This document shows positions 21,672-27,719 of a DNA stretch of 43,921 bases, piece after piece. Origin of the DNA: Actinomycetota bacterium (GTDB lineage: Bacteria; Actinomycetota; CADDZG01; WHSQ01); assembly GCA_009379915.1 (NCBI GenBank), contig WHSV01000023.1, positions 1-43,921 on the forward strand, written 5' to 3'. The notes beneath the pieces were generated by a model. It did not search any database. It saw nothing but the letters and a program-made list of their open reading frames with translations, and was not told the DNA's origin. The translations under genes and the position numbers were made by a program. Positions within the stretch are counted from its first letter, which is position 1. Each line of letters opens with the position of its first letter.

Positions 21672-22113
21672 CGTCTCTTCCTCTCCGCTTCTTCGATGTT
21701 GCTCGTCTGCGGACGGACTCCCGCCCGCGTGCACGGGTGGAAGCCTTCTCCATGTGACCCGGTCGCTGCGCGCTCACTTGTGATCAACGCGGGCGCCGGG
21801 CGCCTCACCTCTATGGACCCGCCCACCGGCGTTCCGCACACGCGCAGGCGAACCGTTTGTTGCCGTCTTACCGGGAGATAGGGACCGGCGCCTCGAGGCC
21901 ACACGCCCTGGCATCCGGGATGTCCTCCCGCAGACACAATCGTTCGGCGATGTACCCCTGACTCCATCGGTTCCCGGGGCAACCGGGCCTTGCGAAGCTC
22001 ACCGAACTCGGGTTCTCTTACGTCCTCCGGCACCTCGTCTTCTCCCCTCGTGGTTCCAACCCGAGATAGGAAGACAAGCGCGCGGCGCATCTGAGCGTCA
22101 GACGCGACGGGTA
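21672..22113 (-). promoter_or_regulatory. long 5' leader of the rpsL operon
   Basis: From the promoter at 22114-22142 the expected transcript has about 435 untranslated bases before rpsL. On the minus strand the segment contains CGGTT...AACCG around 21970-21990 and the GC-rich GGCGCC-type stem near 21790. One open frame (21599-22090, starting ATG) runs through it into rpsL in another phase, but it resembles no family I know and its codon pattern is not convincing. I cannot assign the leader to a known ribosomal leader family. Confidence 0.4.
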
Positions 22114-22662: not shown

Positions 22663-23817
22663 TCAGCTCGGTGCGATCGACCTGACGTTGCCCGATGTCG
22701 TGGTGAATCCTGGATGCAGAAAAGACTGGAGGAGCTCGGAGGCCTGAGGAATGAGGTCATCGCGCAGGGTGTAGGTCTTGTCCTCACCCTCGCGCACCCA
22801 CACGAGGCCGGCCTGACGGAGGATCGCGAGGTGGTGGTAGGCCGTGGACTTGGCGCTGCCGAGCAAGTCGGTCGCCTCCCTGAGTGTCATCGAGCCCGCT
22901 GCCAGTCGCTTCAGGAGTCTCAGTCGGTTCGCATCGCCGAGCGCCTTGTAGAGCTTCACGAGCTGAGGCGGCGGCACGGACTCGTCCACACCCAGGCTGT
23001 CGTCCGACACCGGGAAGATGTAGATCATGACGTCACGATGCTCGGTCAAGAGAACCCAGGGACGAAGGATGTAGGTCGGTGCCATAAAGATGCGCCGGAC
23101 CCACGGCTCGGCGGCGAACTGAATGCCGTTGGTCGCGAGCTCGATGGTTCGCTCGAGCGAGAGCTCCCGTGACATCTTCAGCTTGGCCCTGTAGTCGCGC
23201 TCCATGATGGGAAGCGCTTCCCCCTCGTACAGCCCGAAGACCTCTTCGTCCCAGCGGCGGAGCGCCGTAACGAGGCCCCGCTGGACCGGTTCCGGGCCCA
23301 GCTTTAAGACGTGCTCGAGTGCCAGGACCAAGCCGTCGTTCTCTCCCCACTTGACGCGGGCTCCCTCGACGAGGGTGGTCTGAGCATCCGGATCACCCTC
23401 GACGGCGTCACGTATGACCTCGGCGGGGGCCGCCCGATGCTGGCCGTGATAGCCCACGAGAGCCAGCAGCACCTCGGTCGGCTCGCTGGTCTCGAGTTTC
23501 CCGAGAAAGGTATCCACGTCGTATTCGGGGCCGGAATCGAGAATGTAGCCGAACAGGTTCGCCAGCAATTTGCCGCAGGTCTCACCCAGTGTTCCGGGGC
23601 CTCCGAAGAGCGCCTCGATTTCTTCCAGGAGGTCGTCCGAGGCCTTGTTGCGCAACTCCTCGAGCCGCTCCTTACCCATGTCGTAGGTGTTGACGTCCTT
23701 GGTGAGACCAAGCAGGTCCCCGAGGGCCAGAATGCTCATCAGGAGCTCTGCCGCGCTGGACTGCACGACCTCGAGACCAATCGGAGTCGCGCGCTGGGAA
23801 AGATTTACGACCCGCAT
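22663..23817 (-). CDS. ArsR-type winged-helix transcriptional regulator with long N-terminal domain
   Basis: The C-terminal part (about residues 284-353) is an ArsR/SmtB-type winged helix: LVKLYKALGDANRLRLLKRLAAGSMTLREATDLLGSAKSTAYHHLAILRQAGLVWVREGEDKTYTL. No cysteine metal site (CxC) is present, so metal sensing is unlikely. Residues 1-280 are an uncharacterised helical region; the architecture resembles DUF5937-type ArsR proteins of actinobacteria, but I cannot confirm that from sequence alone. The ATG at 23815-23817 (384 aa) has AAGG 8 bases upstream. Its upstream region is full of GAAC/GTTC half-sites, which suggests that it regulates itself and the divergent small gene. Confidence 0.85.
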   Translation of the reverse strand: MRVVNLSQRATPIGLEVVQSSAAELLMSILALGDLLGLTKDVNTYDMGKERLEELRNKASDDLLEEIEALFGGPGTLGETCGKLLANLFGYILDSGPEYDVDTFLGKLETSEPTEVLLALVGYHGQHRAAPAEVIRDAVEGDPDAQTTLVEGARVKWGENDGLVLALEHVLKLGPEPVQRGLVTALRRWDEEVFGLYEGEALPIMERDYRAKLKMSRELSLERTIELATNGIQFAAEPWVRRIFMAPTYILRPWVLLTEHRDVMIYIFPVSDDSLGVDESVPPPQLVKLYKALGDANRLRLLKRLAAGSMTLREATDLLGSAKSTAYHHLAILRQAGLVWVREGEDKTYTLRDDLIPQASELLQSFLHPGFTTTSGNVRSIAPS

Positions 23818-23852
23818 GGGAAGAACCTTACCCAATTTAGCGTTCGAAACAT

Positions 23853-23870
23853 ATAGAACGAGTGTTCTAT
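23853..23870. promoter_or_regulatory. perfect palindrome upstream of the ArsR-type gene, possible operator
   Basis: ATAGAAC-GAGT-GTTCTAT is a perfect 7-bp inverted repeat 36 bp upstream of the regulator ATG. Its core GAAC-N4-GTTC also fits the Gram-positive and mycobacterial LexA (SOS) box pattern, so SOS control is an alternative to autoregulation. The related palindromes on the other side of this gap have different spacers (1 and 5 bp), which favours a dedicated regulator. Confidence 0.6.
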
Positions 23871-23931
23871 GCCATTGAGACGGTCCCTATCCGCAGATTC
23901 GGCTCTCACGCCCAGGTCCGGCCCTCCAGGT

Positions 23932-23960
23932 TTGACATCCATCGAACGGTTCGATAGCTT
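23932..23960 (+). promoter_or_regulatory. promoter of the 61-residue gene
   Basis: TTGACA (23932-23937) and TAGCTT (23955-23960) are separated by 17 bp on the plus strand. The spacer contains the right-hand palindrome ATCGAACGGTTCGAT (23941-23955), and a second palindrome covers the likely start site. This arrangement is typical of a promoter blocked by a bound repressor. Confidence 0.65.
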
Positions 23961-23977
23961 TCGAACAGGAGGTTCGA
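23941..23977. promoter_or_regulatory. two adjacent palindromic operators
   Basis: ATCGAAC-G-GTTCGAT (23941-23955) is a perfect 15-bp palindrome inside the promoter spacer. TCGAAC-AGGAG-GTTCGA (23961-23977) is a second palindrome with a 5-bp centre directly after the -10. Further single half-sites (AGAAC, TCGAAC) follow to about 24011. The half-site GAAC/GTTC is shared with the palindrome at 23853-23870 beside the regulator gene. Confidence 0.65.
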
Positions 23978-24049
23978 CGGTAGTAGAACGGCTCGAACCC
24001 ACGGCTCGAACGCAGGAGCCGGCCAGGACCCGAGAGGAGGGGTTGACCG

Positions 24050-24235
24050 ATGATTCCCATCGTTTCACTCGAGATCATCGAGGAGCGCCAGCGTGATCGG
24101 CGGGAGCAGGCGCGTAGGGAACGCGCCTCGAAGGCTCACGTCGATGGTGGGGCCGAAGCCCCCCGCTTCGGAGTGCGCCACGCGGTGGCCGGCACCCTCA
24201 GGCGAGTGGCCGACACCCTCGAGCCCATCACCTGA
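24050..24235 (+). CDS. small basic/acidic protein of unknown function (61 aa)
   Basis: MIPIVSLEIIEERQRDRREQ begins the protein; the middle is rich in Arg, Ala and Glu, and the end is RHAVAGTLRRVADTLEPIT, a likely amphipathic helix. It has no signal peptide, no membrane segment and no cysteine. I do not recognise a named family, although short proteins with this general composition are common in actinobacteria. The ATG has a strong AGGAGG ribosome binding site 9 bases upstream, and the gene is framed by a promoter with operators on one side and a terminator on the other, which together argue that it is real and separately regulated. Confidence 0.7.
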   Translation: MIPIVSLEIIEERQRDRREQARRERASKAHVDGGAEAPRFGVRHAVAGTLRRVADTLEPIT

Positions 24236-24247
24236 GTGCCGGCACCA

Positions 24248-24267
24248 GCGATCGTCTCGACGATCAC
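24248..24267 (+). repeat. dispersed hairpin repeat, copy after the 61-residue gene
   Basis: GCGATCGTC-TC-GACGATCAC matches the repeat found between ribosomal genes with one change in the last arm. It lies 13 bp after the stop of the 61-residue gene and is read in the same sense relative to that gene as the ribosomal copies are to theirs. It is followed by GCGAGAAAAGAAGG. Confidence 0.75.
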
Positions 24268-24368
24268 GCGAGAAAAGAAGGCGCAACATCCTGGGTTCGG
24301 GCGACCGACCGTATCGAAAGATCGTGTCCCCGCTCGGCAGGCGGTACCCAAAGCCCGGATCCAACATG

Positions 24369-24395
24369 AAGGCCCCCCTTCCCCCGGGGGGCCTT
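24369..24395 (+). terminator. intrinsic terminator after the 61-residue gene
   Basis: AAGGCCCCCC and GGGGGGCCTT form a perfect 10-bp stem with a 7-base loop, followed by CCTTTATT on the plus strand. It would separate the 61-residue transcript from the aminopeptidase gene that starts 74 bp later. Confidence 0.75.
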
Positions 24396-24468
24396 CCTTT
24401 ATTGTCCCGGGCTCGCTCGTGCCATCCGGTAACGTCGCTGTCTCCGTTCCGTACAGACGAGGAGGCGC

Positions 24469-25683
24469 GTGAACGAACACGAGTTGCAGTCCTACGCCCG
24501 CTTGGTCCTGAGCGTCGGCGCCAACATGCAGGCCGGCCAGGACGTGACGGTCAACGCCATGCTCGAGCACGCGCCGCTCGCGCGCGCTCTTGCTGAGGAG
24601 GCGTACGCGATGGGTGCCCGCTACGTCGACATCTGGTACTGGGACCCTCACGCCAAACGATCGCGGATTCGTCACGCGCCCAACGACACCCTCGGATGGA
24701 CTCCGCCGTGGCTGGACGCTCGTCACGAGTACACGGCCGAACACAGGTCGGCGAACATCGGGATCGTCGGCGACCCCGAACCCGACCTGCTCGTCGAGGT
24801 CGATCCGACGCGGGCGGCGATCGACCGTATGCCCTTCCTCGCGTCTCGACTGACCGCGAACATGAGTGGAGCGGTGAACTGGACGATCGTCCCCTGGCCC
24901 ACAGCCGGCTGGGCATCAACCGCGTTCGGCGAGCCCGACGTCGACAGGTTGTGGGGTTATCTGCGCGCGTTCTTACGACTCGACCAGCCGGACCCCGTCG
25001 CGGCGTGGAACGAGCACGTCGAGCGCCTCACCACCCGGGCCGCCCAGATGAACGAACGGGGATTCGACGCGCTGCACTATCGGCGGCCCGGCACCGATCT
25101 GACCGTGGGACTCATGCCCGACGCCAGGTGGTCGGCGGCGGAGATGAAGACGCACTGGGGAGTGACGTTCAGACCCAACCTTCCGACGGAGGAGATCTTT
25201 ACGGCTCCCGACCGCAGACGCGCCGACGGAGTGATCCGATCGACCCGGCCACTTGCTACCGGGGGCACGGTTGTGCGCGATCTGGAGGTGTCGTTCTCCG
25301 GCGGCGTCGTCACCGACGTGAAGGCGAGCACCGGCGCCGACATCGTGCGCGGTCAGCTCGAAGCCGACGAGGGGGCCAGACACCTGGGCGAGCTTGCGCT
25401 GGTGGACGGGTCGTCACCTATCGGAAAGTCGGGCGTCGTCTTCTTCGACACGTTGCTGGACGAAAACGCGACCTGTCACATCGCCTACGGGGCAGGAATC
25501 CCGACGGCCCTGGAGGATGCGGCCGCTCTTTCGACCGAGGAGCGTCTGGCACGCGGGCTAAATCACAGCAAGGTCCACACCGACTTCATGGTCGGGTCGC
25601 CGGAGCTCGAGGTGGACGGGGTCACTCGCGATGGCGACCGCATCCCGATCCTGCGCGACGAGGTGTGGCAGCTCGGGGGCTGA
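24469..25683 (+). CDS. M29-family metallo-aminopeptidase (thermophilic aminopeptidase family)
   Basis: M29 enzymes remove N-terminal residues from peptides in the cytoplasm with two metal ions. The ligand motifs are all present: PTEEIFTAPD (Glu241/242), LGELALVD (Glu308), CHIAYG (His337), and NHSKVHTDFMVGSPELEVDG (His366 or His370, and Asp372). The length of 404 aa matches the family. The GTG start at 24469-24471 follows an AGGAGGCGC ribosome binding site. The gene lies on the opposite strand to the core operons and is not obviously linked to its neighbours. The natural substrate cannot be inferred. Confidence 0.92.
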   Translation: MNEHELQSYARLVLSVGANMQAGQDVTVNAMLEHAPLARALAEEAYAMGARYVDIWYWDPHAKRSRIRHAPNDTLGWTPPWLDARHEYTAEHRSANIGIVGDPEPDLLVEVDPTRAAIDRMPFLASRLTANMSGAVNWTIVPWPTAGWASTAFGEPDVDRLWGYLRAFLRLDQPDPVAAWNEHVERLTTRAAQMNERGFDALHYRRPGTDLTVGLMPDARWSAAEMKTHWGVTFRPNLPTEEIFTAPDRRRADGVIRSTRPLATGGTVVRDLEVSFSGGVVTDVKASTGADIVRGQLEADEGARHLGELALVDGSSPIGKSGVVFFDTLLDENATCHIAYGAGIPTALEDAAALSTEERLARGLNHSKVHTDFMVGSPELEVDGVTRDGDRIPILRDEVWQLGG

Positions 25684-26542: not shown

Positions 26543-27610
26543 CTAGCCGGGAGGCGCGGTCGATCTCCGCACCACCAGCTCCATGGGGCCCGTTACCACC
26601 TCTTCGATGTCCGCGTCGGGTGTCGATTGTTCCAACAGCTGCACTGCCCTGTGGCCCAGTTGCCCCAACGGCATCCTCACGGTAGTCAGCGGAGGATCAA
26701 CGAAAGCCGCCGGCCTCAGATCGTGGATGGCAACGATCGAGAGCTCTTCGGGTACTCGGACGCCCGCCCGACAAGCGGCATGCAGTGCACCGATTGCCTG
26801 CAAGACGTTTGCCGCGAAGACTGCCGTTGGAGGTTCGTCGACCGCGAGCAAGCGTTTCATCGCGCCGGCCCCCGCTTCTTCGGTGTGATCCGCAGCGATG
26901 ATCAGATCGTCGCTCGCGGCCACTCCGGCGGCTCGGAGAGCGTGCTCGTACCCCGCGCGCCGCTGCCCGGCACACGATCCCCACGGCGGCCCTGCCAGGT
27001 GGGCGATTCTGGTGTGCCCCAACGCGAGGAGATGATTCATGCCCATCATGGATGCACCCGCGTCATCGAAGACGACGCACCGACGGGCGGACTCCGGGCG
27101 CCGATTCAACATGAGCCAAGGAACTCCTGCAGTCGTGAGAGACGACGCGATCTCGTCGGTTTCGTTCATACCCGCGAGGACCAGCCCGTCGACTCGCCCT
27201 TGTGTGATGATCTCCGCAAATCGATGCACTCCGAACCCCTCGTCGCAGGCACTCGCCGTCAACAGCGCGACACCGAGTTCGCCGGCAGCAGACTCGGCGC
27301 CCCTGATGATGGCCGGATACACGGGGTTCCCGAAATCCGGAATGAGCATTCCCAGGATGCCCGTGCGCCCCTGCCTAAGGCTTCTCGCGATCGCGTTTGG
27401 CCGGTACTTGAGGTCGGCAACGGCCTGCAGGACTCTTGCTCGAGTTGAATCACGAATGCTGAGCCGGGAGTCGCCCGTGAGAACCCGCGAGACGACCGAG
27501 CGGTCGACGGAGGCGCGCGCCGCCACATCCGCAAGCGTGGGCTTGCGCGGCCTTTCCGTTTTCCTCACGCTCCGACGCCCCTTCGGGGCCTCCCCACTCG
27601 CGTTGTCCAT
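26543..27610 (-). CDS. LacI/GalR-family transcriptional regulator
   Basis: The N-terminal HTH is complete (residues 25-45: TLADVAARASVDRSVVSRVL), followed by the hinge YRPNAIARSLRQGRTGILG. The effector domain is periplasmic-binding-like, with IPDFGNPVYPAIIRGAESAA, VDGLVLAG, NHLLALGHTRIAHLAGP and the dimer region TTVRMPLGQLGHRAVQLL. I chose the ATG at 27608-27610 (355 aa), because GAAGGG lies upstream; the frame extends to 27688 without support. The first 20 residues form a basic extension before the HTH. No sugar-uptake or sugar-catabolism genes lie nearby, so its regulon is unknown. Confidence 0.92.
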   Translation of the reverse strand: MDNASGEAPKGRRSVRKTERPRKPTLADVAARASVDRSVVSRVLTGDSRLSIRDSTRARVLQAVADLKYRPNAIARSLRQGRTGILGMLIPDFGNPVYPAIIRGAESAAGELGVALLTASACDEGFGVHRFAEIITQGRVDGLVLAGMNETDEIASSLTTAGVPWLMLNRRPESARRCVVFDDAGASMMGMNHLLALGHTRIAHLAGPPWGSCAGQRRAGYEHALRAAGVAASDDLIIAADHTEEAGAGAMKRLLAVDEPPTAVFAANVLQAIGALHAACRAGVRVPEELSIVAIHDLRPAAFVDPPLTTVRMPLGQLGHRAVQLLEQSTPDADIEEVVTGPMELVVRRSTAPPG

Positions 27611-27642
27611 CCGTGGCCCTTCGCTACGCGCGATCTGCGGGG

Positions 27643-27672
27643 AACCTAGTCCTACGACAACAGCAGTAGCAA
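27643..27672 (-). promoter_or_regulatory. weak candidate promoter for the LacI-type gene
   Basis: TTGCTA (27667-27672) and TAGGTT (27643-27648) are separated by 18 bp on the minus strand, between the rpoC terminator and the regulator ATG. The match is modest and no palindromic LacI-type operator was seen in it. Confidence 0.25.
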
Positions 27673-27684
27673 GGCCCTTTGCAC

Positions 27685-27719
27685 ACAAGAGGCCCCCGGG
27701 CGAACCGGGGGCCCCTTGT
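27685..27719 (-). terminator. intrinsic terminator of the rpoB-rpoC operon
   Basis: GGCCCCCGG and CCGGGGGCC form a 9-bp stem around a 5-base loop; outer ACAAG and CTTGT arms extend it beyond a mismatch. On the minus strand it is followed by TCTTGTGTG. It lies 25 bp after the rpoC stop and before the LacI-type gene. Confidence 0.7.

Follow-up and report, generated by a model that had tools for sequence, protein, structure and literature searches.

A divergent regulator and small gene between rpsL and rpoC

The window, a stretch of 43,921 nucleotides, is a contig from an actinobacterial draft genome of 3.39 Mb. It carries a regulator gene on the minus strand (22663–23817) that diverges from a 61-codon gene on the plus strand (24050–24235), and this locus lies between rpsL and rpoC. 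The literal elements named in a preliminary description of this DNA, namely a promoter, the sequences ATCGAACGGTTCGAT and ATAGAACGAGTGTTCTAT, an AGGAGG motif and a terminator, are all found when the sequence is read. The features are listed below, with the basis for each in brackets.

22663–23817, minus strand: ArsR-type regulator, 384 aa from the ATG (Pfam HTH_20/HTH_5, 20-homologue alignment, AlphaFold model)
23842–23859, minus strand: putative operator box D, GTTCTATATGTTTCGAAC, at the regulator's own promoter (exact match to RTTCKAN6TMGAAY)
23856–23867, no strand assigned: LexA-box-like match GAACGAGTGTTC, overlapping box D and probably incidental (comparison with the lexA promoter; N5 in locus L003)
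23930–23947, plus strand: putative operator box A, GTTTGACATCCATCGAAC, overlapping the small gene's −35 TTGACA (one mismatch to the pattern)
23932–23960, plus strand: predicted small-gene promoter, TTGACA-N17-TAGCTT (sequence; −35 6/6, −10 3/6)
23949–23966, plus strand: putative operator box B, GTTCGATAGCTTTCGAAC, covering the −10 (perfect GTTCGAN6TCGAAC)
23972–23989, plus strand: putative operator box C, GTTCGACGGTAGTAGAAC, covering the start site, 5 nt from box B (pattern match)
24035–24040, plus strand: ribosome binding site AGGAGG (sequence; 9 nt 5′ of the ATG at 24050)
24050–24235, plus strand: 61-residue small protein with predicted helices at residues 4–32 and 42–60 (codon composition, L003 match, low-confidence model)
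24368–24396, plus strand: predicted intrinsic terminator of the small gene (11-bp stem with 9 GC pairs; strong hairpin)

An M29 aminopeptidase gene (24469–25683; Pfam E=2.4e-124) starts just past the terminator and is apparently unrelated. A LacI-type regulator on the minus strand (26543–27688) sits between the aminopeptidase region and rpoC.

The regulator is a large ArsR-type protein

The divergent gene had been described as an ArsR-type regulator, and profile searches confirm this assignment: the final ~95 residues form an ArsR-type winged helix (HTH_20, E=2.7e-10; HTH_5, E=4.9e-9; both above the cut-off), whereas the first ~290 residues have no Pfam match. The ATG aligns with the starts of relatives, and an alternative upstream TTG start at 23835 is possible. 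An AlphaFold model built from 20 homologues (pLDDT 89.3, pTM 0.85) runs from a mostly helical N-terminal domain through a short β element to the winged helix. In a fold search against solved structures, the winged helix alone was matched, with resemblance to SrnR and CzrA, and no ligand was suggested. Because the large N-terminal part is confidently predicted, as helices with a small β element, and is conserved among the homologues, it may plausibly serve as the sensor of a signal.

By both profile and fold, the winged helix is that of the ArsR/SmtB repressors (CzrA, SmtB and SrnR), which the locus also resembles in its predicted small, autoregulated local regulon. Unlike these repressors, the window regulator carries its DNA-binding domain at the C terminus, after the long N-terminal domain, and the putative operator is an 18-bp RTTCKA-N6-TMGAAY site; neither this operator nor the regulator–small gene pairing was described in the literature searched. 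The protein also differs from the metalloregulators of the family, as its single cysteine lies outside the winged helix and its score against the metalloregulator model NF033788 (49.2 bits) is below the cut-off of 55. Resemblance to DUF5937-type ArsR regulators (PF19361) consists of weak matches in 4 of the 20 homologues (best E=1.4e-4), with no match for the window protein at E<=1; the sole paper naming DUF5937 in a literature search concerns the prediction of salmonellosis severity. CdsR, a published ArsR-family autorepressor, was rejected as a protein of the same type, as it has 95 residues and is smaller than the window regulator (PMC11009283).

The distribution of the regulator is patchy, with a full-length homologue in 2 of 24 genomes of the class. 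The nearest ortholog, at locus L003 of genome G010 (53% identity), is likewise flanked by rpoC and rpsL. We place the protein in a widespread branch of large ArsR-type regulators that seems not to have been described before.

Half-sites at the locus form four copies of one 18-bp site

When paired across six bases, the half-sites at the locus resolve into a single repeated 18-bp operator, RTTCKA-N6-TMGAAY, with one copy at the regulator promoter (box D) and three at the small gene, where box A overlaps the −35, box B covers the −10 and box C the start site. The preliminary description had seen palindromes here that share GAAC/GTTC half-sites around different centres. The common half-sites stand, but the palindromes are pairings of half-sites from neighbouring boxes: ATCGAACGGTTCGAT (23941–23955) is the junction of the adjacent boxes A and B, boxes B and C supply the half-sites found around the start region, and ATAGAACGAGTGTTCTAT (23853–23870) overlaps box D.

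The −35 (TTGACA, 23932–23937) and −10 (TAGCTT, 23955–23960) of the small gene are separated by 17 nt, and a simple promoter scan does not call this promoter because its −10 is weak (3/6). The lone departure of box A from the consensus is the base that creates TTGACA, and a box with the same departure, GTTTGACA, recurs in Nitriliruptoraceae. Boxes A and B are 1 nt apart in the window, compared with 5–6 nt in relatives, and the 5-nt gap between boxes B and C recurs in L003 and in Bacillota relatives. The counterpart of box D in L003 is GTTCTATATATATCGAAC. With a box on each promoter element of the small gene and one on its start region, the layout seems suited to repression. Two more TCGAAC half-sites in direct orientation, with no N6 partner, lie 3′ of box C (23990–24013).

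The six-base register is conserved in two phyla

We surveyed gaps of 0 to 12 between half-sites upstream of the regulator in 31 non-redundant actinobacterial homologue loci. The exact pattern occurred 21 times at gap 6, once at gap 1 and at none of the other gaps. With up to one mismatch, gap 6 gave 53 sites in 28 loci and each other gap 0–2 sites, and 125,635 bp of flanking control sequence gave two. The core TTCGA-N6-TCGAA was observed 18 times in homologue upstream regions, against 0.03 in dinucleotide shuffles; diverging TTCGA/TCGAA pairs are found mainly at gap 6, whereas converging TCGAA/TTCGA pairs are scattered across many spacings. In nine Bacillota loci an A+T-rich form, RTTCNAN6TNGAAY, has 12 exact occurrences (0.045 in shuffles), with half-sites at gap 6 only and boxes, often in tandem with 5-nt gaps, placed before the regulator. 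Each of two plasmid loci that lay outside the motif definition has a single match in 5.7 kb, and that match falls in the promoter of the regulator gene. The same half-sites, proposed as something to look for in other genomes, are thus conserved in Actinomycetota and Bacillota, where they precede the regulator gene. Judging from this conservation, the 18-bp site is very old and is shared by relatives in the two phyla.

These data bear on two other readings of the half-sites. One holds that the short GAAC/GTTC dyads with variable centres are themselves the sites of the regulator, as the preliminary description proposed, and by eye they are perfect palindromes; yet the N6 register alone is conserved across the two phyla, which led us to reject the N1, N4 and N5 registers in favour of half-sites separated by N6 and leaves this reading scarcely credible. 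The other holds that LexA, as part of the SOS response, governs the regulator gene through ATAGAACGAGTGTTCTAT. The match GAACGAGTGTTC at 23856–23867 does fit the GAACRNRYGTTC box, the lexA promoter of the genome has four GAACN4GTTC boxes and the GAAC half-site is common to both motifs, but the conserved dyad at our locus has the opposite arrangement, GTTC…GAAC across the central six bases. Moreover, the GTTC half of the LexA-like match is part of box D, and it is the N6 register of that box that is conserved, and the N4 spacing is N5 in L003. Because of this change in the ortholog, we treat the match as incidental and rejected SOS control as the main reading; we regard it as improbable. A further GAACN4GTTC at 22004 in the window is presumably due to chance.

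Exact sites are nearly confined to the locus

Pattern searches of the 3.39-Mb genome returned five matches to RTTCKAN6TMGAAY, versus none for a reversed control pattern, and three of the five lie within 148 bp at the locus. The perfect form GTTCGAN6TCGAAC has a single genomic occurrence, box B. Both outside exact sites fall inside coding frames, which we take, from our reading of their translations, to be aldo-keto-reductase-like and adenylosuccinate-lyase-like, and other chromosomal targets of the regulator were rejected on this ground. In 20 other regulator-bearing genomes, exact sites are also few and lie mainly at the regulator. The regulator appears to bind the four boxes and to control only its own gene and the small neighbour; the earlier idea that the small gene is a dedicated output fits a genome in which the sites occur essentially at this locus only.

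The small gene and its counterparts

The codon-position G+C of the small gene (0.74/0.52/0.77) is similar to that of real genes, and its product is modelled as two helices with low confidence (pLDDT 73). Although the gene had been called an orphan, it has counterparts in L003, in Nitriliruptoraceae and among look-alikes divergent from MarR and WYL regulators; in the first two, the pairing with the regulator that the preliminary description suggested seeking in relatives was recovered. The L003 ortholog diverges from a 28-codon gene, MHPGTTWAVAVERQRDLLREARKNRARK, which has a ribosome binding site and is followed by an equivalent terminator. The window and L003 small proteins match without gaps from start codon to start codon (SW score 51, shuffle mean 21, a score reached by none of 2000 shuffles), and when the 28-aa protein was searched against ~1,100 reading frames, the small gene was the best window match (E=0.015).

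In Nitriliruptoraceae, divergent small ORFs with ribosome binding sites occur in the same layout and encode small two-part proteins with a charged N-terminal helix and, in many cases, a C-terminal RxARxLxxxAxRLDP helix. The window protein scores 638 against this set, compared with 504 in shuffles (0 of 1000 as good). A profile of the Nitriliruptoraceae proteins ranks the L003 ORF first but leaves the window ORF off the leading matches. We therefore regard descent from a common ancestor as probable but not proven; the homology rests on the pairwise shuffles and the common architecture, and Arg/Ala/Glu-rich helices invite convergence. Pairs of Nitriliruptoraceae small ORFs are most divergent at codon position 3 (for example, 15/13/25), and close WYL-linked pairs show no clear third-position excess. 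Searches of Pfam and NCBIfam with the small proteins gave no convincing family. We read the small gene as the source of a dedicated output, a putative helical-hairpin protein made from a monocistronic, terminated transcript.

The 170 nt 3′ of the small gene (24236–24405), which include the terminator, have a better predicted fold than shuffled sequences (z −2.8), with no Rfam family in this region. A second long hairpin sits 5′ of the terminator.

A proposed autoregulated switch

We consider it probable, from the anatomy of the sequence, that the locus is a self-contained unit in which an ArsR-type repressor controls its own gene and has a small helical-hairpin protein as its dedicated output. 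In the scheme we propose, a dimeric winged-helix regulator with a ~290-residue N-terminal signal domain would bind the 18-bp dyad, and boxes A–C on the small gene together with box D on the regulator promoter would keep both genes repressed when the signal is absent. A ligand of the N-terminal domain would free the DNA and allow the 61-residue helix-loop-helix protein to be made; this protein could be an effector in general stress, or one linked to the envelope or efflux, and its amphipathic C-terminal helix would serve for docking. We infer autoregulation and repression from anatomy and conservation, and autoregulation is the best-supported step because nearly all relatives have a box before the regulator gene, even those without the small gene. 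Several observations count against the scheme: the −10 of the small gene is weak, boxes A and B are closer together than in relatives, the regulator is patchy in its distribution, no transporter adjoins its gene in this genome, the profile of the Nitriliruptoraceae proteins leaves the window ORF off its leading matches, and close WYL-linked pairs lack a clear third-position excess.

The neighbourhoods of homologues suggest how this arrangement may have arisen. In the Bacillota homologues the regulator gene is followed by that of an MFS transporter; two family-f47 homologue loci also adjoin MFS genes, and a plasmid copy is annotated likewise. These Bacillota regulator–MFS efflux pairs have a homologous regulator and the same operator as the window, but the window genome has no transporter adjacent to the regulator gene, and the putative output is the divergent small gene. 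The ancestral role of the regulator was likely ligand-relieved control of an exporter; the window lineage lacks the transporter, and its output is likely the divergent small gene instead.

Look-alike small genes beside other regulators

When a profile was built without the MarR- and WYL-linked members, its two best new matches adjoined, divergently, a MarR and a WYL regulator. The MarR-paired look-alike comes from a further genome within the same family. After the new members were added, WYL-paired look-alikes were found at nine loci of one actinobacterial family, with a divergent small gene (the WYL assignment was tested with Pfam at three of the nine, and at the rest it is a reading of the sequence).

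These look-alikes help to weigh what the small gene does. Its product could instead be an antirepressor or feedback ligand that completes a loop by binding the N-terminal domain of the regulator, a proposal that agrees with the strict divergent pairing, the shared operators and two predicted helices suited to docking. The look-alikes, however, adjoin a MarR and several WYL regulators that have no signal domain in common with the window regulator, and the Bacillota regulators have MFS genes next to them instead. Since the partner regulators change, we favour an output effector over a ligand of a single regulator and think the antirepressor role unlikely. It is more doubtful still, and in our view very improbable, that the small ORF is untranslated and that its transcript is an RNA effector or a by-product. 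The poor conservation of the small protein and the folding of the 3′ part, with its terminator included, would agree with such a transcript, but the strong ribosome binding site, the gene-like codon-position composition, the ungapped start-to-start match to the L003 protein and the excess of third-position change among Nitriliruptoraceae pairs all argue for translation, and the 3′ region matches no Rfam family.

Returning to the effector reading, we tentatively raise the possibility that the two-helix small proteins make up a family of actinobacterial outputs, portable and so far undescribed, that were separately acquired by local one-component ArsR, MarR and WYL sensors as divergent, autoregulated partners and that perhaps modulate drug efflux or envelope stress. 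The precise operator makes the regulons of this branch of large ArsR-type regulators predictable by pattern search, and the link to regulators offers a handle on the function of small unannotated actinobacterial proteins.

Some look-alike loci have further features. At L132 and L138–L148 (G123 and relatives), small two-part proteins ending in …VWERLEAP are encoded at nine loci with a divergent HTH_11-WYL regulator ~100 nt away, and the intergenic region has a conserved ATCAGGAA-GATTATGACC-TTT-like stretch. At L133 (G002:C19, about 1500–1700), which encodes a MarR-divergent small protein, a promoter repeat, AAGTATCTT-AC-T-AAGCT, overlaps TTGACA. At L167 (636–1784), as read from sequence, the gene for at least one further small protein of this kind, RARVARRLFDLAIAAESEETWRVVWER, directly precedes that of an ABC-transporter ATPase, with both on one strand.
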